DNA of 39,962 nt. Origin: an uncultured Bacteroidales bacterium. GTDB taxonomy: Bacteria; Bacteroidota; Bacteroidia; Bacteroidales; CAIWKO01. The notes below the pieces were generated by a model. That model was not told the origin of the DNA. It worked only from the letters and a program-made list of their open reading frames with translations, and did no database searches. The DNA lies in assembly GCA_903913285.1 (NCBI GenBank), contig CAIWKO010000013.1, positions 1-39,962 of the forward strand. Direction: 5' to 3'. This document shows, piece after piece, positions 14,410 through 31,196 of the stretch (its first letter is position 1; each line of letters opens with the position of its first letter). Both the position numbers and the translations under genes were made by a program.

Positions 14410-16290
14410 ATGAAAAAATTGATTACCCTTTTTATGGTAATGTGTGGTTTTTTGTTCGCGACCCATATCTATGCGCAAAAAAGCTCCACCACCTATGTTA
14501 TTGTAACCACCGTAAGTCCGGGCGACCCTTATTATGATGCTGTGCAGGCTCTCAGCACCTATCGCAGTGCACAGGTGGTACATTTCAGTGCCGATTCGAT
14601 CAACGATCTGATACCAACACTCACGGCTCTGGCTCCGCGCTATGTGGCCGTGGTGCTGAAACCCATCGAGCTCGACATCAATTTCGTCCGGCAATTTCTG
14701 GTGATGAGCACCAATCTGGATTCCGATCCGTTCAGTGATTTCTCGTATGGATACATCACGGGTGCAACCGCTCAGGATGCCTTGAATTTTGTGAACAAGA
14801 TCATCTATGCCGAAGCACATGCAATACAGGGCTATCCGCTAAATGTAGGCGGCTATTCGGCTTCCTCTTTGAATTTTGTTTTTCCCGGTTCGGGCAATTT
14901 CCTCACCTATCTGAATCCTCCCGTTTCGAACAATATTTATATGGAAACGAACGATAACGGAACCGGTCATAATTTCTTTCTGGCCAACACCAGCTATATG
15001 CTCAACAATAAAGTGCTCGATATAGGCTATAATGGCGATCCCCATATGCTGTGGCTTTTTGATAACGGCAACTCAACCACCAACCCGCCGCCCTGGATAT
15101 ACGACAGCACCAAAATAGAAGATACGGCTTATGCGCGGGTGGGCCTCACAAGTTTCGACATTGGAGCGTTAAATCTTTACCCGGCTGTAGCTTTTAACGG
15201 TGCCTGCCATTCGGGCGAGCCCAAAAAAGTGATGGTTGAAAGCGATATTGAAGCTACTTTCGGCGATACGCAGGGATTGATAAAGTTCTATACCATGAGC
15301 GATACGTTCAGCTATTGTTTGTCGATACTCAAAACAGGCATTACAGGCTATTTTGCACCCTGCGGAGCTAACAATGCCAACGATCAGGCCGAGGAGATCT
15401 ACAATGCGTTTCTGTATAATGAGCCTTTGGGCGATGTGCAAAAAAGAAGCATAGATGGTGTTGTGATGGGATGTTTGGGCAACCGTCCAAACCTGAAGAT
15501 TTTTCAGGCAGGAGGTTCTATTTACGATGATGATATACTTTCTTCAGGAACTTTCAATCCAGCCGATTGGTCGGGAGCGGCAAGTATGCTGGGTGGAAAA
15601 GCCAACCGTATCTATTTCGGCGATCCGCTTTACGACCCTTATAAATTCGATCATTCCGATTCGCTGAACATCACAAAGTCGACAATAGATTCTATTACTA
15701 CCAGCACCTTTGATATTCATCTCGCCTACAAAAAACCTGATGCATCAGTAGCTTATTTCCCGGTGTGGGATAAATTTCATTTCAGTGGCACACGCATCTA
15801 CATCCCGGTTGAACTGCCTTCGTATTGCGGTGCCATAACCCATTTCGCTGTGGTCGATTCGTCGGCACCCTACAATTTGGTTATACATGCTGAAGAACAA
15901 TTTGATGGCAAGCACATTTTGCATATCGAGGTCGACATACCGGATGATATGTATGCTCCTATTAACTACGATATTCGTTTCCGCATCACATTTTTGCCGG
16001 CAGGCATCGAAACCAATGTGGCACCAGTACTCTCTGAATTTGATGTGTATCCCAATCCGTCAGCAGGTAATGCTGTCGTTAAATTCGGATTAAATGATAA
16101 AGCCGGTATAAACATCAACCTTTATGATATCACGGGTCGAATGATAAAAAACCTGGTGAACGGAGTTCAGGAAAAAGGAATTCATCAGATAAACCTGACG
16201 GACAAAAATGATCTTACCGACGGAATTTATTTCATCAGGTTCGAATCAGGCGATTATAAATCAACTAAAAAGCTGGTGATCGTTAAGTAG
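14410..16290 (+). CDS. T9SS-secreted protein with a possible caspase/gingipain-like (clan CD) peptidase fold
   Basis: This 626-residue protein has a signal peptide (1-23, ending IYAQ). A typical T9SS type A sorting domain covers about 540-626: FDVYPNPSAGN, then NLYDITGRMIKNL, GIYFIRF and KKLVIVK at the end. The product should therefore cross the outer membrane by the type IX system and be attached to the surface or released. The body (about 25-520) has a Rossmann-like start (TTYVIVTTVSPGDPYYDAVQ). It then has His212 in YNGDPHMLW and Cys266 in PAVAFNGACHSG. This order resembles the His-Cys dyad of caspase-like peptidases such as gingipains, but I infer this from pattern only. The nearest neighbours are other exported proteins. 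Confidence 0.8.
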   Translation: MKKLITLFMVMCGFLFATHIYAQKSSTTYVIVTTVSPGDPYYDAVQALSTYRSAQVVHFSADSINDLIPTLTALAPRYVAVVLKPIELDINFVRQFLVMSTNLDSDPFSDFSYGYITGATAQDALNFVNKIIYAEAHAIQGYPLNVGGYSASSLNFVFPGSGNFLTYLNPPVSNNIYMETNDNGTGHNFFLANTSYMLNNKVLDIGYNGDPHMLWLFDNGNSTTNPPPWIYDSTKIEDTAYARVGLTSFDIGALNLYPAVAFNGACHSGEPKKVMVESDIEATFGDTQGLIKFYTMSDTFSYCLSILKTGITGYFAPCGANNANDQAEEIYNAFLYNEPLGDVQKRSIDGVVMGCLGNRPNLKIFQAGGSIYDDDILSSGTFNPADWSGAASMLGGKANRIYFGDPLYDPYKFDHSDSLNITKSTIDSITTSTFDIHLAYKKPDASVAYFPVWDKFHFSGTRIYIPVELPSYCGAITHFAVVDSSAPYNLVIHAEEQFDGKHILHIEVDIPDDMYAPINYDIRFRITFLPAGIETNVAPVLSEFDVYPNPSAGNAVVKFGLNDKAGININLYDITGRMIKNLVNGVQEKGIHQINLTDKNDLTDGIYFIRFESGDYKSTKKLVIVK

Positions 16291-16312
16291 AGTTTAAAAA
16301 TGGAATCGTAGT

Positions 16313-19057
16313 TTATTCGGTTTTTATTAATTTATGAACGCTGCTATTCTTATTTGTAATGATATTGATAAAATAGATTCCGGATTTTAAGTCATCGGTT
16401 GATATAATGATCTCCGAAGCATTGTTAGTATATATTGTCTGAATCTTTTGACCAAAAGCATTAAATATCTCCAATTCATTGGTCGGCGTTTTGGAAACTA
16501 TTGTTGCAAAACCACCATTTGTTGGATTTGGATAAATGGATGCGTCCTCGTTCGATACAATTGAATGGATATTCAATGGATTTTCGATTAGCGTAGTTGT
16601 TGTATTTGTTACTACCGGCATATTATAATCGAAATAGATGTAAGCCTTGTTATTAATAAAATCACCCACCACACAAGTGCTTTTAGGCTTAATACTGTAT
16701 TTTACAAAACCATGACTCAAGGCTTCATTTATTGAACTATCAGGCAAATTGATGTTATAAAATCTGAACCAGATCTCATTATTATAGCAATTAACCACGA
16801 CAGGTTTGCTGGAACTGATAAGCTGAAAACTACTCAGGTCAAGTTTATTACTAATGGTATCGGTAAGAATAACTGTAAAAGCTGTATCATTACCTGTATT
16901 CTGAAAATGTATCGTGTATTCCAAAGGGTCACCCTGACTGATAAATGCAGGTGTAATGTCTCCACCCGGAAAAACTTCTTTTGAATTGGGATCATAAGAA
17001 CCGGAAATAATAGCGTGAATCGTATCCACGTTATTTGAAGGGGTAAGATCGGTAATATCGGGTGCCGAAACAGATGAAACGGCCGAACTTCCTATGACAG
17101 CCGAAGCAGTAACCGTATATTCAATAATATAAATTTGCTGCTCAATGGGGTTTAAATTATAGGCCAAAGTCGCAGTATTTGCAACAATACTTATTGCTGA
17201 TGGTACGCATGATGTAATAGTAATTTCGGGATTATTTAATAATACGGACATTGAACCGGATTTAATTGTTGTACCGATGTTTTTAAGAGATGCGTAAGCA
17301 GTACCATTGAATCCGGGTCTTAATTGTCCGAGGACTAAGTCAACAACAAGATCATTTTGTCCCGGAATAGGTTGAAAAGCAAAATCGTTTAGCGAATCTG
17401 TTTGATTGCAAAAATTTGAAAAGCTTGAAGTATATGAGTTTGGAGTATAGGTATAGTATAAAGGCGATTCATTGACTGTTGTTAAGTAAGTTCCTTTATC
17501 AACACAAACTTTATAGGGTCCGTTCACAAAGGCAGTAGCTGATGTGCCTCCTTTGGTGATATTTAATTTTGCTGGGCAATTAATATCGCCAGGATCTTGT
17601 ATGTTATTACTATTAAAATCGTAATACGTTTTTCCTGCAATAATATTAGCACTATCGGTAAACACTGCTACATAATTCGAGGCATTTGTAATAAGACTTG
17701 AAATTACATACCCACCAAAAGAGGCAATACTGCCAACATTACCGGTAAGATATACTCTTGAATCTGTGCAGGCCATACTTTGAGTATTGAGAGTTGCAAA
17801 ATCAAAACTGTAAGCAGCTCCTGTTAATGCATTTCCGCTAAGATCCGCTTCAACCAGAAAACAAATACAACTATAGGTATTGGCAGTGGGAAGTGTATTG
17901 GCATAAACCAAATTTAATGTGTCGAATTGGTTTGCTGAAACATAAGGACTGGTATATCCTGTGAGGTAGATGCGATTATTGTTTTTGGTAGCGCAATAAA
18001 AATGGGCATCATTAATGCCGTATTGTTTTGCCCACAAAAAAGTACCGCCATTATCAATTTTTGCAAAATAAGTGGAATAGTTTGCTGCAGTTAGTACGGT
18101 TGTGCCAACGTGGATCGTTCCGCTAAAAGTACCAAACAGGTACACATCATTGTTTTGAGATAACACTTCGGTTCTCCACCACGACGAACTCTCAAGAAGT
18201 TTTGCCCAGACAAAATCACCTGTTGCATTTGCTTTACAAACAAAATCCTGTGGTGAGGAAGTCAAAGTGCTTAACGTTCCTGCAACTCCCAGATTTAAAT
18301 CTCCTTTAAATTCACCTGCGATATAAACATCATTATTTGAAGCCATAGCAATGCTTAAACTAATATGCATTGATGTGCCACCAAGAACTGTGGCGTGTTG
18401 CCAGTTTCCATTATTATCTATAACCGCATAAAAAAGGTTGCCGCTACTTGACGAAATCGTAGATACGCCAATTGTCTGTGATGGTATATAATAGAAAAAA
18501 GAACTTATAACGATTCTATCAGTTCCATTACCTGCTATTCTGAATAAATCAGTATTGCTGTTGGTTGTGCCATTTGCTATTTTAATTGAATTGCTCCATA
18601 AAACTGTGCCGTCAGGTGCATATTTAATAATAAATGAATAAATTCCGCTGCTAACACTTATCGGATATGGATCACAATTTAATGTAGTTGCATTTAACGA
18701 ATCACCAAAATAGCCTGTCACATAAAGGTTTGATTGTTGATCAGTATATAATCCGCCAACTATTACTAAGTTCCCGCTACTTAAACTTTTTGCCCAAACA
18801 ACAGAATCATTATCATCCTTTTTTATGATTATTGAACTAATGATCCCGTTAGAAATAAAAGTGCTATTTCCAACCACTATGTTGCCACTGTATACATTGG
18901 AGTTAATAACATTTTTCATGTTATCAGTAGCAATTCTTGACAATCCTCCTACGGAACAATCCGGAGTTTTATCAGTGTATGCATTGATGAAATTTTGAGC
19001 ATAGGATTGAAAACCAATAAAAACAACTGCAATTACGATGAGTATATTTTTTTTCAT
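16313..19057 (-). CDS. Large T9SS cargo with an N-terminal propeller-like region and a DUF11/DUF7619-like domain
   Basis: This 914-residue protein has a signal peptide (1-20, ending SYAQ). Residues about 25-470 contain repeats of the form DGTVLWSNSI, NNDVYIAGEFKG, TGDFVWAKLL and GGTFLWAKQYG, spaced as in SBBP-type beta-propellers. A SdrD-B-like segment follows (IAGKTYYDFNSNNIQDPGD, about 475-495). A conserved-repeat domain lies at about 690-820, with DPNSKEVFPGG, DPLEYTIHFQNTGNDTAF and NKAYIYFDYNMPVVT, the hallmark of the DUF7619 family. A T9SS type A sorting domain ends it (SIYPNPTNGG to KLIKTE). It is a surface or secreted structural or adhesive protein by analogy. It is convergent with the preceding T9SS gene, with 22 bases between stops. 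Confidence 0.85.
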   Translation of the reverse strand: MKKNILIVIAVVFIGFQSYAQNFINAYTDKTPDCSVGGLSRIATDNMKNVINSNVYSGNIVVGNSTFISNGIISSIIIKKDDNDSVVWAKSLSSGNLVIVGGLYTDQQSNLYVTGYFGDSLNATTLNCDPYPISVSSGIYSFIIKYAPDGTVLWSNSIKIANGTTNSNTDLFRIAGNGTDRIVISSFFYYIPSQTIGVSTISSSSGNLFYAVIDNNGNWQHATVLGGTSMHISLSIAMASNNDVYIAGEFKGDLNLGVAGTLSTLTSSPQDFVCKANATGDFVWAKLLESSSWWRTEVLSQNNDVYLFGTFSGTIHVGTTVLTAANYSTYFAKIDNGGTFLWAKQYGINDAHFYCATKNNNRIYLTGYTSPYVSANQFDTLNLVYANTLPTANTYSCICFLVEADLSGNALTGAAYSFDFATLNTQSMACTDSRVYLTGNVGSIASFGGYVISSLITNASNYVAVFTDSANIIAGKTYYDFNSNNIQDPGDINCPAKLNITKGGTSATAFVNGPYKVCVDKGTYLTTVNESPLYYTYTPNSYTSSFSNFCNQTDSLNDFAFQPIPGQNDLVVDLVLGQLRPGFNGTAYASLKNIGTTIKSGSMSVLLNNPEITITSCVPSAISIVANTATLAYNLNPIEQQIYIIEYTVTASAVIGSSAVSSVSAPDITDLTPSNNVDTIHAIISGSYDPNSKEVFPGGDITPAFISQGDPLEYTIHFQNTGNDTAFTVILTDTISNKLDLSSFQLISSSKPVVVNCYNNEIWFRFYNINLPDSSINEALSHGFVKYSIKPKSTCVVGDFINNKAYIYFDYNMPVVTNTTTTLIENPLNIHSIVSNEDASIYPNPTNGGFATIVSKTPTNELEIFNAFGQKIQTIYTNNASEIIISTDDLKSGIYFINIITNKNSSVHKLIKTE

Positions 19058-19169
19058 AGGAAATGATTTTAATTCTTTTTATAGACAGAAAAAAACGAAA
19101 AAGGTTGCACCAAACAATCAAAGGGTGATAATTTAACTCCACATTATTAGATTGTTGATTAAAATATCT

Positions 19170-19178
19170 GCTAAGATA
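19170..19178 (-). promoter_or_regulatory. Possible -7 box for the T9SS gene at 19057
   Basis: GCTAAGATA on the plus strand reads TATCTTAGC on the minus strand, a near match to TAnnTTTGC. It would give a leader of about 105 bases. There is no clear -33 element, and the box lies just downstream of the end of the hydrogenase-like operon. Confidence 0.3.
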
Positions 19179-19253
19179 CGTTTTTTACATCAAAAAATGA
19201 TGTTTACAGATAAATTTTTGACTTTGAAACGAATAAGAATGTTTTGGTATTTA

Positions 19254-20012
19254 CTACTTTTTCCGATCTCTGCCCAAAAGACTCAACAGCCCGTTGATGA
19301 ATGTGAGTGGGTGGGGCGGATTGCCCGGAATGTAAAGATCGACCATGTGCTTTTCAAGAAAGTTTCGGTTGAGAGCGGGACTGTTTGCCAAAATACCTCC
19401 GCTGATAGCATCCGTGCCGCAAAGGATGATGGCTTTTGGTGCAGGTGCATCACGCAGGCAGGTTTCCAAAGGTTCTGCCATGTTTTCGGTAATGGGACCG
19501 GTTATCACCAATGCATCGGCATGACGTGGCGAAGCAACAAATTCGAAACCCAATCTGCCCATATCAAATTGAACATTACCTGAAGCATTCAGTTCCAGTT
19601 CTGCGCTATTATCTCCACCGGCTGAAACTTGACGGAGTTTGAACGAGCCCTTAAACATACTAATGATCTCAGGCCGCACTTTGCTGATTTCAATCTGCAA
19701 AGGCTTATCTTCCCCTGCTTTGATGATAAGAGCATCGCGGCAGTTTACCGAGAGATGATAATCTTTGGTGAACTTTATCTTATTAGGTGAATGAAAAGCA
19801 CAGGCACCGCAAAAGATGCATTTACCCAAATCGATACACAACGGGGAAGAAGTGATGGCGTCGGTCGGGCATAGTTCAATCAATGCAGCTTCATCGCAGG
19901 CATCCGAACTTATCACAGGTCTGCCTTTAAAAATACCGGGCACTTCCGTTTGCCGCAGATCGCGGATGTATTGGCTGCCCTGATGATATACTGTTTTTAG
20001 TTCTTTCAGCAT
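19254..20012 (-). CDS. Fused HyfH-like ferredoxin and HyfI/NuoB-like small subunit, stripped of most Fe-S ligands
   Basis: This 252-residue protein joins a two-motif ferredoxin domain (about 25-115) to a HyfI/NuoB-type small subunit (about 128-245). In the ferredoxin part, motif I keeps only its last Cys (Cys48 in LCPTDAI). Motif II keeps its first three (Cys65, 68, 71) but has Ser75 where the fourth belongs. In this fold those four survivors ligate one cluster, and the four lost ones ligate the other. In the small subunit the proximal-cluster ligands are also replaced: CxxC by Asp134/Ala137 (GGDNSAELELN), the third Cys by Asp201 (CGTDAISGG), and the PGCPP cysteine by Asn231 (IPGNPPHP). The backbone motif FVASPRHADALVITGPITENM is intact. 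It is the last gene of the operon, three bases after the large subunit. The homology is clear; the role without these clusters is unknown. Confidence 0.85.
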   Translation of the reverse strand: MLKELKTVYHQGSQYIRDLRQTEVPGIFKGRPVISSDACDEAALIELCPTDAITSSPLCIDLGKCIFCGACAFHSPNKIKFTKDYHLSVNCRDALIIKAGEDKPLQIEISKVRPEIISMFKGSFKLRQVSAGGDNSAELELNASGNVQFDMGRLGFEFVASPRHADALVITGPITENMAEPLETCLRDAPAPKAIILCGTDAISGGILANSPALNRNFLEKHMVDLYIPGNPPHPLTFINGLLSLLGRDRKK

Positions 20013-20015
20013 GGT

Positions 20016-21515
20016 CTAAAGATCAAATCCGCAGTACGAAAGGTTAAAACTCTTGTTGATTATGGGAAAATCGCTGATCTCGTTGTTTCTCACAGCCAGA
20101 GCCAATGCCAGCCAGTTGTGCATCGAAGGATCTTTGATTTTGTATACTAATAGATTCCCGTCTTTATCGGTCACTGCACAATGGCATATCTCTCCGCGCC
20201 AGCCTTCGGTCATGCTGATAGTAAAGGAATTTGCTTTCGGTTTTAGCTCGCTTTGTTCAAATGGCATTATTTCCGGATCGTTTTCTATCCATTCTTTCAA
20301 ATAGCCTATCGATTGAATGATTTCTTCATTGCGAAGTTGCGTTCGGGAATACACATCTCCGTGATTTTTTAATATGGCCCGATGTTTCGTTTCATTAAAA
20401 AGCCCGTATGGATGCGAAGAGCGTATATCCCGGTTAAGTCCGGCCATGCGTGCTGAAATTCCCACGGTTCCTATCTCCACAACTTTTTCGTGTTTTAGTA
20501 TCCCGGTCTTTTCCAGTCGCGAAAGCAAGCTGGGCAGCGTTTTCATACGGTTCCATATTTCATTATAGTCGGGTTCATAAGCTTCGAAAATACTTTTCAG
20601 CCGTTGTTTTAGCTCCGGTGTTAAGGCATAAAAACTACCAAATGGACGAATAAAACCTTTAGCCAAACGGTTTCCGCACCACTCCTGAAAAAAGTTCACC
20701 ATCGGAGTTCTGAGTCTTCCTAACACCGAATTTCCCAATTGGTAAGCTACATCCGTGCAGATAGCAGCCAGGTCGCCTGTATGAATAGCGATGCGTTCGA
20801 GTTCCATTGCAACACTCCTTTGAAGTATCGTTGAATCAGATGCCGTGTATCCACACAAACTTTCCCACAGGAAGGAAAATGCCGATGCATGGCCACAGGC
20901 TGTATCACCGGCAATCGATTCGGCCAGAGCTATGCGTTGATTGATTTTGCTTTTTGTAAGAAACAACTGTTCTATGCCCCGGTGCTGGTATCCAAGCTGA
21001 ATCTCCAAATGCAGTATACGTTCGCCGCTGCAAATAAACCTAAAATGACCCGGTTCAATGATTCCCGCATGGATAGGGCCTACACCCACTTCGTGCAATT
21101 CCTCGCTGTCGATCCTGAAGAAAGGATAATTGGCGATCGTTTTTCCAATATCAGCTCTGTTCCATGCATATCTAACAGGTTTCAGCCAGGGATGGCCGAC
21201 GAAATTGATCCCGAAATTTTCATGGATCTCGCGTTCGAATATATAAAAAGCAGGATTTTTCTCCGTCAGCGATGGCACCGAAACGTTTTGCTTTGCACAT
21301 TTCCACGAAAGTAAATGAACAGTACCGTCATTATCATCCGCCAAACAGCATATCAAATGCATTTCATCCGTCAAGTAATAGCCGAAATAGCTCACACAAT
21401 GAACACTTTCGGAGGCAGCCAACGCTGTTACATTTGCAAAAAAATCATGGTATGGGAGTACCGGAATGCTTTCGGTGAGTATGGTTTGCTGATTGGTTAC
21501 CTGTAATGATTTCAT
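20016..21515 (-). CDS. HyfG-like large subunit without [NiFe] ligands (Ehr type)
   Basis: This 499-residue protein fuses a NuoC-like 30-kDa domain (about 30-125; motif FEREIHENFGINFVGHPWL) to a NuoD/hydrogenase large-subunit domain (about 145-499), as in HycE and HyfG. Conserved backbone motifs are present: GVGPIHAGIIEPGHFRF with His149, EIQLGYQHRGIE and MELERIAIHTGD. The four [NiFe] cysteines are not. The usual ER(I/V)CGxC is ESIAGDT (Ala202, Thr205), and the C-terminal DPCxxC aligns with NLSYCG (Ser493, Gly496), although a Cys at 495 lies nearby. There is also no C-terminal extension for maturation cleavage. This matches the Ehr class of energy-converting hydrogenase related complexes, which lack the metal site. 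It should not be called a hydrogenase. The substrate is unknown. Confidence 0.88.
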   Translation of the reverse strand: MKSLQVTNQQTILTESIPVLPYHDFFANVTALAASESVHCVSYFGYYLTDEMHLICCLADDNDGTVHLLSWKCAKQNVSVPSLTEKNPAFYIFEREIHENFGINFVGHPWLKPVRYAWNRADIGKTIANYPFFRIDSEELHEVGVGPIHAGIIEPGHFRFICSGERILHLEIQLGYQHRGIEQLFLTKSKINQRIALAESIAGDTACGHASAFSFLWESLCGYTASDSTILQRSVAMELERIAIHTGDLAAICTDVAYQLGNSVLGRLRTPMVNFFQEWCGNRLAKGFIRPFGSFYALTPELKQRLKSIFEAYEPDYNEIWNRMKTLPSLLSRLEKTGILKHEKVVEIGTVGISARMAGLNRDIRSSHPYGLFNETKHRAILKNHGDVYSRTQLRNEEIIQSIGYLKEWIENDPEIMPFEQSELKPKANSFTISMTEGWRGEICHCAVTDKDGNLLVYKIKDPSMHNWLALALAVRNNEISDFPIINKSFNLSYCGFDL

Positions 21516-21521
21516 CCTGCG

Positions 21522-22937
21522 CTACATTATACATTGTGATAAAAATACCGAAAAAGCATGCGGCGGAAAATATCCAAGCCATACAACAGCAATCAACAGC
21601 AACATGATTGGCAACAGCTCATAATATTTTATTTTCCCGTAAGTTTCAACTTTTGTTTTTTCTTCCGAAAATACGATGTTCAAAGCATTCCGTGTAAAAG
21701 CAAATATAATGAACGTCAGCAAAACCAGCAACAATGCCATTTCCCAAATATGTCCCGCGTTAAAAAGTCCTTTAAATATAAGGAATTCGCTTACGAAGAT
21801 CCCCGAAGGCGGAATCCCTCCTAAAAACAACAAAAGCATTAAAAATATCAGCGCTGCACCGGGAGCTTTGCCAAAATAATCTTTGATGGAATTGATCTTA
21901 TACGTTCTGAAATGATGAAAAACAGTCCCCAAATGATAGAACAGCCCCGATTTAACCAGGGAATGAAGTATTAGATGCAGGAACACAGCATAAAGCACAG
22001 GCCCACCTGCCGAAAGTCCGATAGCTACCAGCCCAACATGTTCAAGGCCGGAGTATGCTCCCAATCGTTTCAGGTTTCCGGCGAACATCAGATAAACAGC
22101 TGCTATCATCACACTCAGCATCCCAGTCCACATCAGTAGGTTATTCATCCATTCAACAATATCAGCTGCCGACAACGCGTGATAAAAACGGTACAGGGCA
22201 ACAAAACCTGCATTCATCAGGGCAGTTGAAATAAAGGCACCAACAGGTGAGGGCGCCACCGTCAAGGCATCAACTTTTATGGTCTGCAGAGGGAATAACC
22301 CCATTTTAGTGCTGAACCCCACCAATATGAACAGAAAGACCATTTTCATCCAGAACGGATTCGCTGTGGCAGCCTGCGCACTGATCGACGAAAACGAAAG
22401 GTCATAAACCCCGTTGGTTTGAACTGCCATGCCGAGAAATATGATGCCTACAAACGCCAAAGCGATGCCAATAGAGCAGATGAATACATATTTCCATGTA
22501 GCTTCCAGGCTCAAAGCATTTCGTTCGTGATAGATCAGCAGCGAAACACACAAGGTAGTGGCTTCCACAAACACCCATAACAATCCGGCATGTTCCGACA
22601 GGTAAACTCCGGTAACCGAAGCAATAAGCATGATGAGCACCGCACAATAGATTGAAGTGCGAAAAGGATTGTCCTGGTTTCGTTTCAGATAGATAAAACT
22701 ATAATACACCGTGTAATACGATAACAAGGTGAGTATGCTCAGGAATATCAAACCGGCATGATCGAACCGAAAATATTCCAATTCTCTTTCTCCAAGATGA
22801 ATGAAAGCATAAATATTAATAAGGGTTTGAGCGGCCAGAAAGACTATAAGAGATGCATAAGCGACGAACCTCTTTCGGACCAGAAAGATCAATGCTGCCA
22901 GAACCAAAGCCAATATAAAATACAATCCCAGCATCAT
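21522..22937 (-). CDS. HyfF/NuoN-like antiporter subunit of the Ehr-type complex
   Basis: This 471-residue polytopic protein (about 13-14 helices) belongs to the Mrp/NuoLMN antiporter family. The TM5 glutamate is Glu125 in LWVFVEATTLCVSLLIYHE. The TM7 lysine is Lys211 in GFSTKMGLFPLQ. The family motif LPDAHSxAP is degenerate here (KVDALTVAPSPVGAF), without the usual His. Later helices carry SGLEHVGLVAIGLSAG and the LHLILHSLVKSGLFYHLG block with His and Lys. It would move protons or sodium ions in the membrane arm. It is fourth in the operon and six bases before the large-subunit gene. Confidence 0.88.
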   Translation of the reverse strand: MMLGLYFILALVLAALIFLVRKRFVAYASLIVFLAAQTLINIYAFIHLGERELEYFRFDHAGLIFLSILTLLSYYTVYYSFIYLKRNQDNPFRTSIYCAVLIMLIASVTGVYLSEHAGLLWVFVEATTLCVSLLIYHERNALSLEATWKYVFICSIGIALAFVGIIFLGMAVQTNGVYDLSFSSISAQAATANPFWMKMVFLFILVGFSTKMGLFPLQTIKVDALTVAPSPVGAFISTALMNAGFVALYRFYHALSAADIVEWMNNLLMWTGMLSVMIAAVYLMFAGNLKRLGAYSGLEHVGLVAIGLSAGGPVLYAVFLHLILHSLVKSGLFYHLGTVFHHFRTYKINSIKDYFGKAPGAALIFLMLLLFLGGIPPSGIFVSEFLIFKGLFNAGHIWEMALLLVLLTFIIFAFTRNALNIVFSEEKTKVETYGKIKYYELLPIMLLLIAVVWLGYFPPHAFSVFLSQCIM

Positions 22938-22940
22938 AAC

Positions 22941-23570
22941 TCAGTCTTTTAAGTTTGAAAGGTTATCAATACTCATTTCTTCAAAGGTGTTTCCGATGCG
23001 GTTCAAAAACAGTCCCAACACCAGCACACTGACAAAAATATCCAGCAAAATACCCATATTCACCAGCATAGGTTGATGTGCCCCTATCGTTAACGACAAA
23101 AGGAACACACCGTTTTCAAGTATCATATAGCCCATCATGTGGGTAATGATTTTCTTACGGGTGATGATAATATAAATTCCGGTCAGCAGCGAAGCAAAAG
23201 CTACCGTGAAATCGGCCTTCGTATTTTTATCCAGCCCAAGATAGCCCGAGATAATATAAGACAGTATGATAAAACCCGTGATGATGATCAGCGACCAGAA
23301 ATACGAAACAAAGGGTTCGGTTTCTCTCACGATCTTGTTTTTGTGCAAAATATAAGAAAGAAACCAGGGAATTGCAATGGATTTGAAGATGATGGTTTCG
23401 AGCAGTATCATCGTAAGGTTGAACCAACTGATTTCGGTGAGTTTCAGAAAGGTGATGCCGAACAATAGAACTCCCTGCAAGGCCAGCATCCTGATAAACG
23501 TGTTCAGGCGGTTGGCTATACCGATGAAAAGAAGCGTGAACGAAAAGACAGTCAGCAATATGGTTTCCAT
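22941..23570 (-). CDS. HyfE/NuoK-like membrane subunit
   Basis: This 209-residue protein has about six or seven transmembrane helices and matches HyfE in length and position. It contains the NuoK-like core near the C-terminal half, with two acidic/polar stretches (SLTIGAHQPMLVNMGILLDIFVSVLVLGLFL) and MGYMILENGVFLLSL, whose Glu is typical of the proton-path helices. The last residues (RIGNTFEEMSIDNL) are cytoplasmic. It is the third gene of the operon; two bases separate it from the HyfC-like gene and three from the HyfF-like gene. In complex I this subunit links the redox arm to the antiporter subunits. Confidence 0.82.
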   Translation of the reverse strand: METILLTVFSFTLLFIGIANRLNTFIRMLALQGVLLFGITFLKLTEISWFNLTMILLETIIFKSIAIPWFLSYILHKNKIVRETEPFVSYFWSLIIITGFIILSYIISGYLGLDKNTKADFTVAFASLLTGIYIIITRKKIITHMMGYMILENGVFLLSLTIGAHQPMLVNMGILLDIFVSVLVLGLFLNRIGNTFEEMSIDNLSNLKD

Positions 23571-23572
23571 AA

Positions 23573-24469
23573 TTATTTCTCTAAAAACAACAAAATGCCT
23601 ACAAATATTAAAAATGCCAACGATGTAAGCGACAAGATGAACTGCGGATTATGTGTCATTCTGAATCGTGCCATAAAAGATTCAACGAATGCCACCAAAA
23701 CTGCAATCACCGCCTGTATTCCCACAAAAATGGCAATAGCAACCCAGGCCGATGCTTCGAACAGGAAGAAATCGGCGATAACGGTTCCGAAAACCGCGAA
23801 CTTCAGTGCATTCGATAGCAATATAAGCCCCAGATCGAAGCCGCTGTTGTCGAGTATCATCACCTCGTGAACCATGGTCAGTTCCAGATGGGTGCGCGGG
23901 TCATCCACCGGCAGACGGGAAGTTTCAACCAATGTAAACAGAAAGATCAGAAAGGCAGCCATAAAGCCTATCCCGTATGCAAAGCCGGTTCCGTTGCGCA
24001 TGGTGGTGAATATGTCGGCAAACGAATAATGTCCCGTGAACAGTACCAGCGACCCAAACAAGATCAAAAAAGCCGGCTCGGCAAGCATGCCATAATGTGC
24101 CTCGCGGCTGGCTCCCATGCCTTCAAAACTGCTTCCCGTATCCATAGCGGCAACAATCGACATAAAACGTCCTAGTCCCAACATATAAATAAAGAACACA
24201 AAATCACCGTCAAACGAGATCAGGGCTTTCCATGGACCGATGGGCAGCACCAGCGATGCGCTGATGATGGCTGCAAACGAAATGGTAGGTGCGATCCGAA
24301 AAATGAACCCGGTGGTATTGCTGTAAACACTGCCCTTGCGAAACAAACGTATCATATCTTTCAATGGCTGCAGCAAGCCCGGGCCTTTTCGGCCACTAAG
24401 CAAGCTCCGGGTAATGTTAATTAGCCCCGGAAAAAGCAACGCAATAATTATAATCAATAATACATTCAT
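23573..24469 (-). CDS. HyfC/NuoH-like membrane subunit
   Basis: This 298-residue protein has eight predicted helices and is the anchor between redox and membrane arms in this superfamily. Conserved motifs: GRKGP (26-30) with LLQPLKDMIRLFRK, SSFEGMGASREAHYGMLAEPA (Glu116, Glu123, Glu131) in the loop that faces the quinone or catalytic chamber in complex I, and VETSRLPVDDPRTHLELTMVHE (Glu182 to Glu202), the acidic funnel. All the key acidic residues look intact, unlike the redox subunits of the same operon. It is second in the operon, six bases after the HyfB-like gene. Confidence 0.88.
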   Translation of the reverse strand: MNVLLIIIIALLFPGLINITRSLLSGRKGPGLLQPLKDMIRLFRKGSVYSNTTGFIFRIAPTISFAAIISASLVLPIGPWKALISFDGDFVFFIYMLGLGRFMSIVAAMDTGSSFEGMGASREAHYGMLAEPAFLILFGSLVLFTGHYSFADIFTTMRNGTGFAYGIGFMAAFLIFLFTLVETSRLPVDDPRTHLELTMVHEVMILDNSGFDLGLILLSNALKFAVFGTVIADFFLFEASAWVAIAIFVGIQAVIAVLVAFVESFMARFRMTHNPQFILSLTSLAFLIFVGILLFLEK

Positions 24470-24475
24470 TTCTAA

Positions 24476-26464
24476 CTACTTTTTAAAAAATTCAAGCACC
24501 AAAACAATGATGATAAACAAAAAGGCATACATCAGGTAACTCTGCGTCTGCCCGTTCTGAAAAATGCGGAAGCGCCCCAAAAACTTCACCACCTTTTCCA
24601 GCGGGCCCGATATCAGCTTGTCCTCAATGCGATCATGCGAATGGCTTTCATACGAATATACCTTTTTGGGAAACACCGCCTCTATATCAATTTTATCTTT
24701 TTCAACCGAAACCAAGGGCTGAAACAGTTTACGGAACGTGCGTGCAAACGAACTGGCTGTATATTGCATTCGCGGATTCGGCGCCACATAACCGCATCCC
24801 CATGTTTCGCTTTTCGCGATAACAACTTTGCGCTGTGCAAGTTTCCGAATAATATAAACAACCAGTATGATGCCCAGAAAGATTCCCGACATCAGCGAAA
24901 TACCCGAAAGTGTACTTGTGAAACCCGACATTACATTCCGGATATCCGCAACCGGAACCATCATGTTCAGCGGCTGTTCCATTACTTTCATGATAAGTGA
25001 AGGAAAAAAACCTATTGAAACGATCAAGGCGGTAATGACCAGCATCGGGGCGCGTTTCACCCAACCGGCTTCAACAGGCTCTTTCGGAAATTGAGTGCGT
25101 GGGCTTCCCTGAAAAACAATTCCAAAAGCCTTGGTGAAACACAATATCGCCAGTCCGCCAATCAGCGCGAGCGCAGCAATAACCAGCACAAACGAGAATG
25201 ATTCCGAAAGTCCGAACAGATGGATGGCTTTAAAAAGTCCTGAGAATATGATGAATTCCGAAATAAAACCATTAAGCGGTGGCAACCCGCAGATGGCTAT
25301 GGCGCCAATCAGGAAGAATGCGGAAGTGTATGGCATTTTCTTTCCCAGCCCTCCCAGTTGTTCAATATTCACGGTGCCTGTGGCCTGATAAACATTCCCG
25401 GCGCTGAAAAACAACAGCGATTTAAAAAGGCTATGGTTTAGTGTGTGCAACAATGCGCCTGCAAAGCCCATAAAAGCCAGCACCGTGTTTCCGTAACCCA
25501 TCCCCAAAGCGCCCATTGCAATGCCGATGCCGATGATGCCGATGTTTTCGATGCTATGGTAGGCCAGAAGCTTTTTCAAATTGTGTTGAATAATGGCAAG
25601 CATCACGCCGTAAAGACCCGAACACACTGCAAATATCATGATTATCCAGCCAATGGTGATCATATTTGCCGGACTTTGAATCACCACGCGCAGTATGCCG
25701 TAAATGCCTACTTTGATGATGACTCCCGACATAATCCCCGACAGATGCGAGGGAGCAGCCGGGTGGGCATGAGGAAGCCAGGTATGAAACGGTATGAAAC
25801 CCGATTTGATCCCGAATCCGATAAAGAACAAAAGAAACACGAACAGCGAATTGGTAGCTCCCGCTTGTTGCGGCAGGGCTGCCATGTCGGTGAACGAGGT
25901 GCCTCCCGTCAGGAAAAAGAGATAGAATGTGCCGATAAGCAAAAAAACCACACTCACGTGCATTTGTATAAAGTAGTTGGTGGCAGCTTTTAGTGTGCCT
26001 TCTTTTTTGCGTTCGAACAATATCAGCAAGAACGAACTCAACGACATGATCTCCCACACCACGATGAACAGGAACAGGTCGTTGAGCAGCGTGACGTATA
26101 TCATCGAGGCATGAAAAACAGGCAGCAGGGCATAATGCACCTTAAGGTCGGCTTTCCGGTCGGGATAATGTCCCAGGTATTCCTGTCCGTAGAAACTGCC
26201 TGCCAGCGATATGATATTGATGATGATGATAAACCAGGCGCTCAACGCATCGAGCCTGAGCTGGTATTCGCCGAAAGCAGTATGCAGTGGCGTTGAAACA
26301 ATATCGCCGCCGGATAAAACCATTACCGCCGGTATTACCGAAAACACTGCTATAACCACCGACGAAAAGAACGACATCCACCCGGCCAACCGTGGCCTGA
26401 AAAAAGGCACCGCCAACAGGGCACACACAACGCCAACGAGCGGAAAAAGCAAATTTTCAGGCAT
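24476..26464 (-). CDS. HyfB-like antiporter subunit, first gene of the Ehr-type operon
   Basis: This 662-residue protein has about 16 helices and the extended C-terminus typical of HyfB/HycC. The antiporter-family residues are present: Glu138 in VVWEIMSLSSFLL, Lys220 in GFGIKSGFIPFHTWLPHAHPAAPSHLSG (the canonical LPxAHxxAPS form), and Lys251 in SGVIIKVGIYG. After the last core helix it has SETWGCGYVAPNPRMQYTASSFART, the hallmark of hydrogenase-4 component B, then a final helix (YLMYAFLFIIIVLVLEFF). It leads a compact operon B-C-E-F-G-(H/I) with gaps of 2-6 bases. HyfA, HyfD and accessory genes are absent. It has its own -7 box 22 bases upstream. Confidence 0.9.
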   Translation of the reverse strand: MPENLLFPLVGVVCALLAVPFFRPRLAGWMSFFSSVVIAVFSVIPAVMVLSGGDIVSTPLHTAFGEYQLRLDALSAWFIIIINIISLAGSFYGQEYLGHYPDRKADLKVHYALLPVFHASMIYVTLLNDLFLFIVVWEIMSLSSFLLILFERKKEGTLKAATNYFIQMHVSVVFLLIGTFYLFFLTGGTSFTDMAALPQQAGATNSLFVFLLFFIGFGIKSGFIPFHTWLPHAHPAAPSHLSGIMSGVIIKVGIYGILRVVIQSPANMITIGWIIMIFAVCSGLYGVMLAIIQHNLKKLLAYHSIENIGIIGIGIAMGALGMGYGNTVLAFMGFAGALLHTLNHSLFKSLLFFSAGNVYQATGTVNIEQLGGLGKKMPYTSAFFLIGAIAICGLPPLNGFISEFIIFSGLFKAIHLFGLSESFSFVLVIAALALIGGLAILCFTKAFGIVFQGSPRTQFPKEPVEAGWVKRAPMLVITALIVSIGFFPSLIMKVMEQPLNMMVPVADIRNVMSGFTSTLSGISLMSGIFLGIILVVYIIRKLAQRKVVIAKSETWGCGYVAPNPRMQYTASSFARTFRKLFQPLVSVEKDKIDIEAVFPKKVYSYESHSHDRIEDKLISGPLEKVVKFLGRFRIFQNGQTQSYLMYAFLFIIIVLVLEFFKK

Positions 26465-26485
26465 TTATTTCTTGTTTATACAGCG

Positions 26486-26493
26486 CAAAAGTA
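26486..26493 (-). promoter_or_regulatory. -7 promoter box of the Ehr-type operon
   Basis: CAAAAGTA on the plus strand reads TACTTTTG on the minus strand, an exact TAnnTTTG match, so the leader would be only about 15-18 bases. A possible -33 (CAAG at 26516-26519) is at 22-base spacing. Confidence 0.55.
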
Positions 26494-26648
26494 AGCCTAA
26501 AAAACCTCTTTAATGCAAGCCGCAAAAAAACAAATTAACTGTTTATGGTTAATTATTCACTTGAACCCGAATAATACAAACTTAGGCAAGAAATAGTTCT
26601 GCTTCCCCTTCAAAATTATTTTTTACGGCCTGTTTTTGTAAAATATTC

Positions 26649-26656
26649 TACCTTTG
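26649..26656 (+). promoter_or_regulatory. -7 promoter box for the Old Yellow Enzyme gene
   Basis: TACCTTTG is an exact TAnnTTTG match 18 bases before the ATG at 26675. The 210-base divergent region also holds the Ehr operon promoter; nothing else stands out there. Confidence 0.5.
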
Positions 26657-26674
26657 AACATCAACATTAGATAA

Positions 26675-27901
26675 ATGATATCATCACCGGAAAAAATACT
26701 TTTCACACCAGCAGCTATCGGACCGATTACGCTTCGTAACCGCACCATTCGTGCCGCGGCTTTCGAAGGCATGTGCCCGGGCAACAAACCCTCTCAGCAA
26801 CTGTTCGATTATCACACTTCCGTGGCTGCCGGAGGCGTCGGTATGACCACCATCGCTTATGCATCCGTAATTCAAAGCGGCTTGTCGTTCCCCAGACAAT
26901 TGTGGTTGCGCAAAGAGGTTGTTCCCGAATTGCGGCGCCTGACCGATGCCATTCATCGCGAAGGAGCTGCTGTTTCTGTGCAGTTGGGGCATTGCGGTAA
27001 TATGTCGAAAAAGAGCGTGGCAGGCCGTTTGCCGCTTTCGCCTTCGGGCGGACTGAACATCTATTCGCCAACATGGTCTAAGAAAATGGACCGCAACGAT
27101 ATCGATGAGGTGGTACGAAGCTTTGGCGATGCAGTACATATTGCCCGCCAGTCGGGCTTCGATGCCGTCGAGGTTCATGCAGGCCATGGCTACCTCATCA
27201 GCCAGTTTCTTTCGCCTTACACAAATCGCCGTAAAGATGAATTCGGCGGCTCGCTCCAAAACCGTGCACGTTTCATGCAAATGGCGCTTCGCGAGGTGAT
27301 GAAAGCAGCCGGAAACGATATGGCAGTCATCGTAAAAACCAATATGCGCGACGGATTTCGCGGAGGGATGGAAATCGACGCATGTCTCGAAGTGGCCCGT
27401 TTGATCGAACAGGAAGGTGTTCATGCTCTGGTGCTTAGTGGAGGTTTTGTGAGCAAAGCCCCTATGTATGTGATGCGTGGCAGCATGCCCATCCGCACCC
27501 TTACCTATTATATGGAAAACCTTCCGCTCAAGATAGGCGTAAAACTTTTTGGCCGCTTCATGATACCTTCGGTTCCCTTTCAGGAAGCTTATTTTCTCGA
27601 CGATGCCCTTCGCTTTCGCGAAAAGCTAAAAATGCCGCTCATCTATGTTGGAGGACTGTTATCGCGACCAAAAATTGATGAGGTTTTGGGTCATGGTTTC
27701 GAATTTGTTGCCATGGCACGGGCACTGCTCAATGAGCCTGACTTCGTGAACCGCATGAAAACCGACGAAAAAGCCCGTAGCCTGTGCACCGCCACCAACT
27801 ATTGCATCGCTCGTATGTACACCATCGAAATGGCATGCCATCAGCATGTAACCAACCTGCCCCCCTGTCTGAAACGGGAAATAGACCGTATGAAATCATA
27901 G
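26675..27901 (+). CDS. Old Yellow Enzyme-family FMN oxidoreductase (single-domain NADH:flavin oxidoreductase type)
   Basis: This 408-residue protein is a TIM-barrel FMN enzyme. Motifs in order: ITLRNRTIRAAAFEGM (phosphate and FMN contacts, about 18-33), SVQLGHCGNM (101-110), EVHAGHGYLISQFLSP with the His168/His171 pair that binds the substrate carbonyl, TNRRKDEFGGSLQNRARF, and VGGLLSRPKI near the FMN phosphate site. It lacks the NADPH-binding C-terminal half of 2,4-dienoyl-CoA reductase. The C-terminus keeps Cys371, Cys377 and Cys388, spaced like the Fe-S motif of that family, but Thr374 replaces one ligand. It probably reduces an activated C=C bond. It is followed 12 bases later by a dehydrogenase gene, so the two may form an operon. 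Confidence 0.85.
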   Translation: MISSPEKILFTPAAIGPITLRNRTIRAAAFEGMCPGNKPSQQLFDYHTSVAAGGVGMTTIAYASVIQSGLSFPRQLWLRKEVVPELRRLTDAIHREGAAVSVQLGHCGNMSKKSVAGRLPLSPSGGLNIYSPTWSKKMDRNDIDEVVRSFGDAVHIARQSGFDAVEVHAGHGYLISQFLSPYTNRRKDEFGGSLQNRARFMQMALREVMKAAGNDMAVIVKTNMRDGFRGGMEIDACLEVARLIEQEGVHALVLSGGFVSKAPMYVMRGSMPIRTLTYYMENLPLKIGVKLFGRFMIPSVPFQEAYFLDDALRFREKLKMPLIYVGGLLSRPKIDEVLGHGFEFVAMARALLNEPDFVNRMKTDEKARSLCTATNYCIARMYTIEMACHQHVTNLPPCLKREIDRMKS

Positions 27902-27913
27902 TCTTGCCATCAA

Positions 27914-28720
27914 ATGAAACCAACCGATACTCACTCCATAGCTTTAATAACCGGCGCAAGTTCGGGCATAGGCTATCAAATTGCGCGCAGGCTTGCCGCC
28001 CTGCATTACGATGTGATATTGGTGAGTAATCAGGAAACCCGCCTGCACCAAACCGCCGAAGAACTCGCTGCCGCTTTCGGAGTAAGAACCTGGGCGCACT
28101 TTATGGACCTCTGCCAAGCCGATGCCGCCGGGCAGCTCTATCAGTGGTGTGCCGATAATCAGCTGCAGGTCGACATACTGGTCAACAACGCGGGCATTTT
28201 TTTCTTTGGCGAGGTGGTTAAAACCGATATTGAAAAAACCCGCAACATCATTTCGCTCCACGTATCCACCCCCGCGCAGCTTTGCGCCCTCTTTGGCCGC
28301 GACATGAAACAAAGACGTTCGGGACATATCCTCATCATTTCGTCGCTCTCGGCCTGGATGCCCTACCCCGGCATTGCGCTCTACAGCGCCACCAAACTCT
28401 TCCTGAAAAGTTTCGCCCGTTCGCTGCGCAGCGAAATGCTTCCCTATCATGTAAATGTAACGTGCATCTGTCCGGGAGCGGTTTCAACCGACTTGTATGC
28501 GCTCAGCCCCGAAAACCACCGTACCGCTCTTCGCTTTGGCATTATGATGCGTGCCGAAACACTGGCTCGCCGAAGCCTGCGGGCCATGTTCCGCAAGCGG
28601 GCGCGTTATGTTCCGGGCTTTCTCAATAAAATATTTCTGCCCTTACTGCTAATCGTCCCACCCGGCCTGGTGATGTGGTTCAGGCGCAACAGCAGGTTTT
28701 TGCCTGTGGATGAGGAATAA
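27914..28720 (+). CDS. Short-chain dehydrogenase/reductase
   Basis: This 268-residue protein is a classical SDR. It has the nucleotide-binding motif TGASSGIG (13-20), NNAG (91-94), and the catalytic residues Ser144, Tyr157 and Lys161 (YSATK). The CPGAVSTDLYA segment (about 188-198) matches the class. The C-terminus is unusual: a hydrophobic stretch (FLPLLLIVPPGLVMWF, about 239-256) ends with RRNSRFLP. This suggests peripheral or single-span membrane association, as in some lipid-modifying SDRs. It follows the flavin oxidoreductase by 12 bases. Both have more GC-rich codon use than the AT-rich genes further downstream. The substrate is unknown. Confidence 0.88.
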   Translation: MKPTDTHSIALITGASSGIGYQIARRLAALHYDVILVSNQETRLHQTAEELAAAFGVRTWAHFMDLCQADAAGQLYQWCADNQLQVDILVNNAGIFFFGEVVKTDIEKTRNIISLHVSTPAQLCALFGRDMKQRRSGHILIISSLSAWMPYPGIALYSATKLFLKSFARSLRSEMLPYHVNVTCICPGAVSTDLYALSPENHRTALRFGIMMRAETLARRSLRAMFRKRARYVPGFLNKIFLPLLLIVPPGLVMWFRRNSRFLPVDEE

Positions 28721-28783
28721 GGGAAAGGGAGGGTTGTTGCTTCGAAACAATTAAAAGGTTTGGCAAAGGGAGGTATTGGGACA

Positions 28784-28842
28784 GGGCGTATGCAATACGC
28801 CCCTACGACCGTGTAATAAAAAAGGGCGTATGGAATACGCCC
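28784..28842. repeat. Two copies of a palindromic GGGCGTAT repeat between convergent genes
   Basis: GGGCGTATGCAATACGCCC (28784-28802) and GGGCGTATGGAATACGCCC (28824-28842) are hairpins with perfect 8-bp stems and three-base loops, 40 bases apart. They differ only in the loop. Reversed, the first reads GTAGGGGCGTATTGCATACG and so on, which resembles dispersed REP-like palindromes seen in many genomes. They sit between the convergent SDR and the 403-residue gene and may act as bidirectional terminators. Confidence 0.8.
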
Positions 28843-28867
28843 CTTGAAGAGTTATGAGAGAATTGAT

Positions 28868-30079
28868 TTAGGAATCGGGGGTGGGGTTGTCGGGAGCGGT
28901 GACGGGTTCGAGATAGATCTTTTGAATGACGTTTTCGCCAGCTTTGATTTCGATGGTGTAAGGAACAGGTATGTAGCCTTCCATGAAGATGACACCCTGA
29001 ATAGTACCTACTTTTAATTCACCACAGTAGTCTTCGCCATCTTCGTCGGTGGTGCCGACATAGTTTGCTGACTGGATTGAATTTTGAGCTCCGGCAGCAG
29101 GTTCCTCATTGTTTTTAAAGTATACAAGCGTAGTAAGACTTCCTGTTGTGACATCGGGATCGACGGAAGGATCGTCGGGGGGAGCATTTTTGACGAGGTT
29201 GATGCTGATGCGAAGTATATTCTTTTCGACGGTGGCGATGTCTTTTTGATAGTAGGTTTGATAGTCGGGATATTCGAGGGTAGCTGTCCAAAGGGCATTG
29301 GGAAGGGAATAGAACCTGATATTACCTTTAGCGGTGGAATATTTGACGACGGTATCGGTTCCGTTGGTGAGGGTGCATTTTACTTTGCGGAGGGCCATCA
29401 GTCCGACAGAATCGAGAATGCTTAAAACGATGGATGTGTAGCGAGAGCCGACCGGACGACCGATGCGGGCAGCCGATATGATGGCATCTGCAGATTCTTT
29501 GATTTGGGATTTAAATATTTTAATGAGATTTTCTTCGGGTTTATCGGCTTTTATCAAAAGTTGATGGATTAATTTGTTGCCAAAAATTTTTCTTTTTTCG
29601 ATGATATCTTTGGGTGAACCATTTGCATCATTAAAGGCTTTGATAGCAGCCTGCATGGCGGTGAAATCGGCAGGTTTTAAATTGGTGAGCACTGCAGCGT
29701 TGGTATCCATGATCTTGTAGAGTTCCTGACAACGGGTGCCGATGAGGGTGTCGTCGAGTTGGGTGATGGATGATTTGGGAATACTCAACAATAATTCGAG
29801 TTTGGGAAGATCAACCTGACCTGCTTTTACTGCTGAATAGAGGACACGGTCGAACACGGTTTCGACCATAGCTTCGCGAAGGGAATCTTTGATAGCAGTT
29901 ATTTCGGCGGTGGTTAGGAGACTTATGCCCTTTGCATCTTCGACGTCGTCCATAATGTCGATAAGATTGTTTTGCTCAATTACTGCTTCGGGAATGAGAT
30001 TTATTTTAGCTTGATTGTCGACACAAACTGCTAATACTCTTTTTTTTGCATTGTAGTTTAATTCGTCAAGTGCTGTCAT
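28868..30079 (-). CDS. Unrecognised 403-residue protein with a helical N-terminal half and a beta-sandwich-like C-terminal half
   Basis: I do not recognise this protein. It has no signal peptide or membrane segment, so it is predicted cytoplasmic. Residues about 1-235 are helical, with periodic Leu/Ile and short hairpins (TTAEITAIKDSLREAMVETVFDRVLYSAVKAG). Residues about 235-300 look like a beta-sandwich (KCTLTNGTDTVVKYSTAKGNIRFYSLPNALWTATLEYP). A Pro/Asp linker follows (about 305-318), then a second sandwich resembling carboxypeptidase-regulatory domains (VGTTDEDGEDYCGELKVGTIQGVIFMEGY). Paired domains of this type are normally extracellular, so the missing signal is odd. Array B lies about 86 bases upstream, with its core reading toward this gene. 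Confidence 0.75.
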   Translation of the reverse strand: MTALDELNYNAKKRVLAVCVDNQAKINLIPEAVIEQNNLIDIMDDVEDAKGISLLTTAEITAIKDSLREAMVETVFDRVLYSAVKAGQVDLPKLELLLSIPKSSITQLDDTLIGTRCQELYKIMDTNAAVLTNLKPADFTAMQAAIKAFNDANGSPKDIIEKRKIFGNKLIHQLLIKADKPEENLIKIFKSQIKESADAIISAARIGRPVGSRYTSIVLSILDSVGLMALRKVKCTLTNGTDTVVKYSTAKGNIRFYSLPNALWTATLEYPDYQTYYQKDIATVEKNILRISINLVKNAPPDDPSVDPDVTTGSLTTLVYFKNNEEPAAGAQNSIQSANYVGTTDEDGEDYCGELKVGTIQGVIFMEGYIPVPYTIEIKAGENVIQKIYLEPVTAPDNPTPDS

Positions 30080-30164
30080 GATTTTACTTTTTAATTGTTA
30101 TTACTTTTATTTATTGTGATGGGAATTACTATTTGTTGAACAGGATGAAAAATGAACGAAGTGG

Positions 30165-30440
30165 TTCGGACGATGTAAGGTGCGATTCCAAGAAGGTTTA
30201 GAGCGGTTCCAGGAAAGTATAGTGCGATTCCCAGAATGTATAGTGCGATTCCCAGAATGTATAGTGCGATTCCCAGAATGTATAGTGCGGTTCCAGGAAT
30301 GTATAGTGTCGTTCCAGAAATGTATAGTGTCGTTCCAGGAAGGTATAGTGTGGTTCCGAAAAGGTATAGTGCGGTTCAAACCAGATAGAGCGTCGTTCGG
30401 ACGAGGTAGAGCGTCGTTCGGACGAGTATTGCCGACATTC
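30165..30440 (-). repeat. 21-bp tandem array B, 14 phased copies, core GGAACG-N6/7-ACAT on the minus strand
   Basis: TTC (GAA on the minus strand) recurs at exactly 21-base spacing 14 times, from 30165 through 30186, 30207 and so on to 30438. The central units read GCGATTCCCAGAATGTATAGT; the outer ones drift. On the minus strand, units contain GGAA(T)CG-N6/7-ACAT, the same core as array A at 11.6 kb. The period leaves long frames open on both strands, with heptapeptides such as SGNRTIH. The minus-strand frame starts far into the flank and has no gene-like composition, so I treat it as noncoding. The rest of 30080-30751 holds only the palindrome at 30697 and AT-rich sequence. Confidence 0.9.
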
Positions 30441-30714: not shown

Positions 30715-30751
30715 CGCGTAATTATTTTATTAATTATTAAACACTTAAGAA

Positions 30752-31174: not shown

Positions 31175-31196
31175 CGCGAGCGGGGACTATTAACTT

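Follow-up and report, generated by a model that had tools for sequence, protein, structure and literature searches.

According to the accessible parts of the literature on them, Ehr complexes combine hydrogenase-4-like subunits and Mrp-like membrane subunits with a HycE-like large subunit without NiFe-binding motifs, and they form a known class whose function is not established (PMC6349859, PMC10284858); they are suspected of linking charge translocation to redox reactions in the cytoplasm (PMC6349859). The six-gene operon that we analyzed has the same subunit make-up but additionally lacks an N2-type cluster and the outer ferredoxin cluster, and the accessible parts of the same papers do not mention the N2 ligands (PMC6349859, PMC10284858). 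The formate hydrogenlyase and hydrogenase-4 of E. coli (HycC-G and HyfB-I) share the subunit set and the folds with our operon and provide the best structural matches, whereas in the operon the NiFe and N2 cysteines are missing, ferredoxin and small subunit are fused, and the ferredoxin is left with a single-cluster set. Marreiros reportedly devoted a paper to Ehr. Compared with group 4 [NiFe] hydrogenases, both the four NiFe cysteines and the proximal cluster ligands are absent. Respiratory complex I has NuoB, NuoC/D, NuoH, NuoK, the antiporter-like subunits and their channel residues in common with the operon, which in contrast contains neither N2 ligands nor NuoE/F/G; in its large subunit, Gly203 and Ile153 stand where E. 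coli NuoCD has a Tyr and a His, which we take to be quinone-site residues. Complex I-type membrane subunits also work without electron transfer, namely in Mrp antiporters and in the DAB/MpsAB carbon-uptake complexes. To our knowledge, these systems have no hydrogenase-like soluble arm, which is kept in our operon. Ehr as such is already known, and none of the titles and abstract openings that we searched describes a relative of complex I that has lost N2; a prior mention in the text of subscription papers is possible.

The Ehr operon and its large subunit and membrane arm

The window, i.e., the whole stretch of 39,962 nucleotides that was analyzed, is one (C13) of the 70 contigs that make up a draft genome of 3.99 Mb, assigned to an uncultured Bacteroidales bacterium. 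Based on ORFs and profile matches, six minus-strand genes running from 26464 to 19254 form an operon that fills positions 19254-26464. The first gene encodes a HyfB-like antiporter-like subunit (24476..26464) and is followed by genes for a HyfC/NuoH-like subunit (23573..24469), a HyfE-like, NuoK-like subunit (22941..23570) and a HyfF-like antiporter-like subunit (21522..22937), all assigned by profile matches and all with their channel residues largely conserved. The fifth gene (20016..21515) codes for a large subunit of the HycE/HyfG type (NuoC plus NuoD), which the alignment and an AF2 model identify as an Ehr subunit without the NiFe cysteines. The last gene (19254..20012) specifies a ferredoxin/small-subunit fusion of the HyfH-HyfI type with 252 amino acids that, judged from its reading frame, alignment and model, lacks the N2 ligands (N2-less, as opposed to N2-complete relatives with all four cysteines). 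The gene order B-C-E-F-G-HI was found in the window and, where all six matches fall on one locus, in 74 (57 N2-less and 17 N2-complete) of 76 cases; the exceptions are L049, in which the large subunit comes first, and L026, a cut locus in which the HyfB match falls on the HyfF gene. The six operon genes (19254-26464) include no NuoE, NuoF or NuoG input module, and their proteins gave no DUF2309-type Pfam match.

The columns of the HycE NiFe cysteines are occupied by A202/T205 and S493/G496 in the window, with AGDT in place of the CGIC of HycE. At the C-terminal motif, where HycE has Cys, S493 and G496 are present in all 66 N2-less and all 18 N2-complete rows. Since the NiFe cysteines are absent from the large subunit in both groups, the operon belongs to an Ehr complex, and the combination by which such complexes are recognized, hydrogenase-4-type membrane subunits and a small subunit in one gene cluster, is likewise present. 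HypD is encoded in the window's genome, so that no case can be built on a lack of NiFe maturation. Among the positions that are invariant in 56 aligned large subunits are E437, W439, R440, G441, E442, H445, N467 and W468, as well as D482, N487, K488, S489, S493, Y494, G496 and D498. The AF2 model of the large subunit has a mean pLDDT of 87.8 and matches HycE best (7z0s_E, Z 38.6), with pLDDT values below 50 in the loops 144-156 and 495-499, which hold pocket residues.

In the four membrane subunits, the charged channel residues are kept in 95 to 100% of the N2-less rows. This includes E138, K220, K251, H340, H344, K348 and E403 of the HyfB-like subunit (54/54 rows), R122, E131, E182, R185, D189 and E196 of the NuoH-like subunit (59/59), K63, E152 and D177 of HyfE (61/61), and K149, K211, K329 and E384 of the HyfF-like subunit (62/62), in which E125 and K290 are conserved in 98% and 95%, respectively.

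Just downstream of the operon lies a large minus-strand ORF (16313-19057), the end of which resembles a type IX secretion signal by eye. The window's genome also contains a separate complex I cluster on contig C22 (positions 14500-34000) with matches to NuoA, B, CD, H, I, K, L, M and N; no NuoE, F or G match was found in these 19.5 kb.

Cluster ligands of the fusion protein and its relatives

Relatives of the fusion protein were first collected as 67 sequences from genome_contigs, giving 68 rows with the window. Adding relatives from whole genomes led to 96 usable small subunits, 76 of them N2-less and 20 with all four cysteines. From this comparison onward the partial row L067 was excluded, and short rows were left out of trees and class counts; L070-L097 entered the analysis as longer stretches covering the same loci or only in the copy count of the order survey. 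This survey covered 294 genomes of the window's order, with a completeness of at least 90% requested and a threshold of E <= 1e-40, and yielded a relative in 68 genomes with 70 copies: 66 N2-less (65 genomes), three N2-complete and one unreadable, the latter being L191, a second and partial copy in G658. The N2-complete copies come from G002 (a member of the window's own genus), G620 and G658. In a sample of the phylum, 18 of 392 genomes contained a relative at E <= 1e-20, namely that of the window, one other N2-less (L118 in G067) and 16 N2-complete ones (L098-L105 and L119-L126). The record titles of N2-less sequences also name bins of Planctomycetota, Spirochaetota, Chlorobiota and Delongbacteria. 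The fusion gene of G056 is split into its halves on two separate contigs (L133 and L134; C154 and C158), possibly due to an assembly break or an insertion.

Profile matches and Foldseek place a small-subunit half with the NuoB/HycG fold at about residues 125-247 (19272..19640, minus strand), with the NuoB-like match at 138-246 next to a HycF-like ferredoxin; the AF2 model of the fusion protein has a mean pLDDT of 92.7 and its best Foldseek match is HycG (7z0s_G). The original prediction of an intact frame in which all four N2-type ligands are replaced was borne out: the protein is encoded by a single open minus-strand frame, and the alignment to E. coli HyfI and HycG puts its residues D, A, D and N onto the four cysteines of the N2/proximal cluster. 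These are, in the order of the ligand positions, Asp134 (codon at 19611..19613), Ala137 (19602..19604), Asp201 (19410..19412) and Asn231 (19320..19322). Asp134 was found in 64, Asp201 in 63 and Asn231 in 62 rows of the 68-row set. Among 74 N2-less rows, position 134 is D in 73, position 201 is D in 72 and position 231 is N in 72, and all three are Cys in each of the 18 N2-complete rows compared. Likewise, all 66 N2-less copies of the order survey have D or E at 134 and 201 and N at 231. Position 137 varies in these copies (C in 47, A in six, G in four, N in three, and S, V and T in two each). With a Cys there in 47 of the 66, the window represents an extreme of a clade that has lost three ligands. 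DCDN is the most frequent signature of the 76 N2-less rows (58) and also occurs in Ancylomarina sp. (L066), the record of which carries no MAG label, whereas the DADN of the window was seen in six rows and recurs in G042, at 74% identity.

The ferredoxin half comprises about residues 28-100 (19713..19931, minus strand), as aligned to HyfH, HycF and NuoI. Instead of the eight cysteines of a 2[4Fe-4S] ferredoxin, it has kept four as one cluster set, together with an orphan Cys39. The set consists of Cys48 (19869..19871), the fourth cysteine of motif I, and of Cys65, Cys68 and Cys71 (codons 65-71, 19800..19820), the first three of motif II; Ser75 (19788..19790) replaces the fourth. We take C48/C65/C68/C71 to be the set for one cluster of the 2[4Fe-4S] fold, presumably the N6b-type cluster next to N2, so that the lost set would be that of N6a. 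Cys39, present in four of 68 rows, is placed on the first motif I cysteine of HycF and HyfH by MAFFT and has no partners there. It had been overlooked in the count of eight lost among twelve ligand cysteines, which is strictly seven. The claim that the surviving cysteines follow the set of one cluster holds throughout the relatives, since C48/65/68/71 are kept in 67 of 68 rows, the lone miss being the partial row L067; the order survey gives 68 of 70 copies, the other two being fragments. Ferredoxin motif I is lost in 73 of 74 full-length N2-less rows, ten of which, by a loose pattern, still show a Cys around position four of motif II; L057 alone retains all eight ferredoxin cysteines. Of the 20 N2-complete rows, 14 have the motifs of both clusters and six have lost the same one, independently of N2. 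Conservation within the same operon had been named as support for a selected variant at five of the replaced positions and applies to Asp134, Asp201 and Asn231, but not to Ala137, which is mostly Cys in relatives, or to Ser75, where 56 of 68 rows have Phe.

With these losses, a single isolated cluster would be left in the complex. On-path clusters of complex I are about 9-14 Å apart, edge to edge, according to the accessible part of one study (PMC5938582). Removal of N2 and of the outer cluster would therefore leave the kept one without a partner inside the usual tunneling range. This agrees with the prediction that electrons have no path to the large subunit; an ordinary ligand set for one no longer exists.

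Selection, phylogeny and a second lineage

The N2-less operon is under strong purifying selection. Estimates of dN/dS from close pairs, 19 of 22 of which were usable, range from 0.033 to 0.157, with 0.033-0.138 for the fusion protein (9/11 pairs) and 0.046-0.157 for the large subunit (10/11); the pair of window and G042 is saturated. The fusion-protein tree unites 74 N2-less rows in a single clade (100/93), with the N2-complete rows next to it; three long rows in this tree (L065, L116 and L117) carry a flag of uncertainty. Relatives with the same operon but intact cysteines had been named as evidence against the original reading; they do exist (20 of the 96 rows), but as a sister group. The 21 sampled N2-less rows of the main clade also group together in the small-subunit tree (100/95). 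The large-subunit tree, calculated with all 18 N2-complete and 31 of 66 N2-less rows, places the N2-less rows and the N2-complete L117 and L119 in one clade (100/99) without separating them cleanly. N2-less rows are not one group in this tree, which has three changes, only one of them forced by supported branches, and L119 groups with L056 and L057 (89/86). Because of this last grouping, the trees hint only weakly at one origin of the main N2-less clade. Fifteen positions of the large subunit distinguish N2-less from most N2-complete rows; 11 of them are present in each of L117 and L119, compared to zero to five in the remaining 16 N2-complete rows. Since these two rows lie among or beside the N2-less ones in the tree, the large subunit hardly changed when N2 was lost. 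An order of cluster loss was considered but is not claimed: L057 is the deepest N2-less row in the fusion tree, yet nested in the tree of the small subunit only.

A separate Ehr operon (L193:536-7752) with D-C-D-D at the ligand positions was found in G015, a genome of the same order. Its small subunit shares 51-52% identity with the N2-complete L104 and L105, compared with 33-40% for the five other relatives examined, and falls outside the clade of 35 others in the small-subunit tree (98/98) on a branch flagged as long. Beside the main clade, this makes two lineages in which the same three cysteines were replaced by Asp/Asn. The small subunit of G015 is not fused to a ferredoxin half, and the 8.4 kb contig shows no ferredoxin gene, so L193 possibly encodes a complex I relative that has no iron-sulfur cluster at all. 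Of the listed residues, all 24 of the channels and 26 of 27 of the large subunit are kept, the pocket residue H445 being replaced by Tyr. This second lineage consists of one genome bin in about 700 contigs. No further small subunit of the G015 type was detected among 294 other genomes, where the next best match was a main-clade fusion (E 8e-38), or among the 395 genomes of another search, where the best matches were of the N2-complete L104/L105 types.

Proposed function and rival explanations

From these sequence features, we consider it probable, at roughly 0.6, that this Ehr complex, which is related to complex I and belongs to a widespread subfamily without N2, carries out redox-independent ion translocation and that its remaining cluster is structural. 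No electrons would arrive at the large subunit, and the complex would run without internal electron transfer while translocating ions, by exchange or pumping of H+ and possibly Na+. Its soluble arm would act by binding or by non-redox chemistry in the old active-site pocket, and the remaining [4Fe-4S] cluster would hold the ferredoxin domain together. Asp, Asp and Asn would most likely fill the empty N2 cavity with a hydrated polar network and possibly a bound cation. The N7 site of ovine complex I offers a precedent: as far as the accessible part of that paper goes, Asp, Asp, Ser, Ser and waters are found where E. coli has four N7 cysteines (PMC8357420). The persistence of the proton-handling residues examined, and of the complex itself in many species, suggests a pump-like machine that is no longer run on electrons. 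A more far-reaching version is put forward only tentatively: a machine of the superfamily with a whole hydrogenase-like arm and channel residues may translocate ions without any electron transfer, may have arisen at least twice, and may have converted its old N2 site into a conserved site of carboxylates and an amide (with hydration, cation binding or proton relay) that assumes the role of the cluster in coupling the soluble to the membrane arm.

How electron transfer at N2 becomes distant proton pumping is a central open question of complex I. If our reading is true, nature has provided a rare control in the form of a selected relative that keeps pump and pocket residues and from which the electron wire was removed, apparently twice; it could reveal the parts of the machine that belong to ion transport alone. 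It also suggests more non-redox members of the superfamily than Mrp and DAB, and, as a warning, that in many Bacteroidota the operons annotated as hydrogenase-4 or NADH dehydrogenase may be neither.

That the loss results from decay, sequencing error or an assembly artefact has a negligible probability. The source is a draft genome in 70 contigs, but its signature recurs in G042, DCDN occurs in the Ancylomarina record, 65 of 294 genomes of the order have an N2-less signature, and dN/dS is far below 1. Sequencing error and pseudogenization were ruled out on these grounds, as was decay, in line with the original view that the loss is patterned and selected. The near invariance of the retained cluster set, however, allows for a redox role and counts against redox-independent translocation, and the Cys at position 137 in most of the clade, also found in the second lineage, would be compatible with an unusual metal center and likewise counts against this reading. 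The complex might still be a redox enzyme: Asp, Cys (or its substitutes), Asp and Asn would then coordinate another kind of metal site in place of N2, either mononuclear iron or a cluster of unusual type, from which electrons pass on to the large subunit. Asp134, Asp201 and Asn231 are indeed nearly invariant, and [4Fe-4S] clusters with one Asp among their ligands have precedents elsewhere. But the variation at position 137 leaves at most three constant oxygen ligands, the usual entry is cut by the additional loss of ferredoxin cluster I in 73 of the 74 rows, and ferredoxin is absent from the contig of the second lineage, which makes such an enzyme rather improbable. We also doubt strongly that the single remaining cluster is a sensor whose redox or oxygen state gates a passive antiporter of the membrane arm: this would fit its retention in all but fragmentary copies while the others were lost, as well as the six of 20 N2-complete rows that keep the same cluster and lose the other, but not the small subunit of the second lineage, which has no ferredoxin domain.

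The neighboring genes bear on another explanation, namely that the operon is an ion or anion module for the uptake of inorganic carbon or of anions, in which the Ehr arm, by supplying or using an ion gradient, would serve a SulP-type transporter and would continue to do so in the N2-less form without redox drive. A SulP-type transporter is encoded in seven of 20 N2-complete loci in three arrangements, upstream, inside the operon (L105:6939-9137) and downstream (L119:1114-2871), a further example being L102:720-2429; in L105 it sits between the genes for large and small subunit and is fused to a PTS EIIA domain. A PTS_EIIA_2-type protein is found upstream of a HyfB-like gene in 13 of the 20 loci, including one with an HTH_17 domain (L101:9214-9900). 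Three of the SulP and two of the EIIA proteins were checked by Pfam, and the others were assigned by sequence cluster. In contrast, neither gene occurs in any of the 76 N2-less loci, although the 57 with a whole operon have a median of only 1.4 kb upstream, so that a more distant SulP gene would be missed. No neighbor gene is common to many N2-less operons either, the maximum being six of 76 loci. Taking both sides into account, we regard an anion-uptake module as unlikely and prefer redox-independent ion translocation by an N2-less Ehr complex.

Three N2-complete operons contain a second HyfB-like antiporter-type gene (L098:9747-11741, L120:9726-11699 and L124:9935-11908), which matches Proton_antipo_M (Pfam) in L098. 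A link between the N2-complete L117, from the window's genus, and a NuoE/F input module was rejected: the neighboring NuoE-F-like gene (Pfam) is followed by ORFs that resemble HoxU, Y, H and W by eye, and probably belongs to a separate enzyme, an NAD-linked [NiFe] hydrogenase set. A stretch resembling an NAD-linked [NiFe] hydrogenase operon (L135:952-6107) adjoins the N2-complete Ehr operon of the genus-mate G002.
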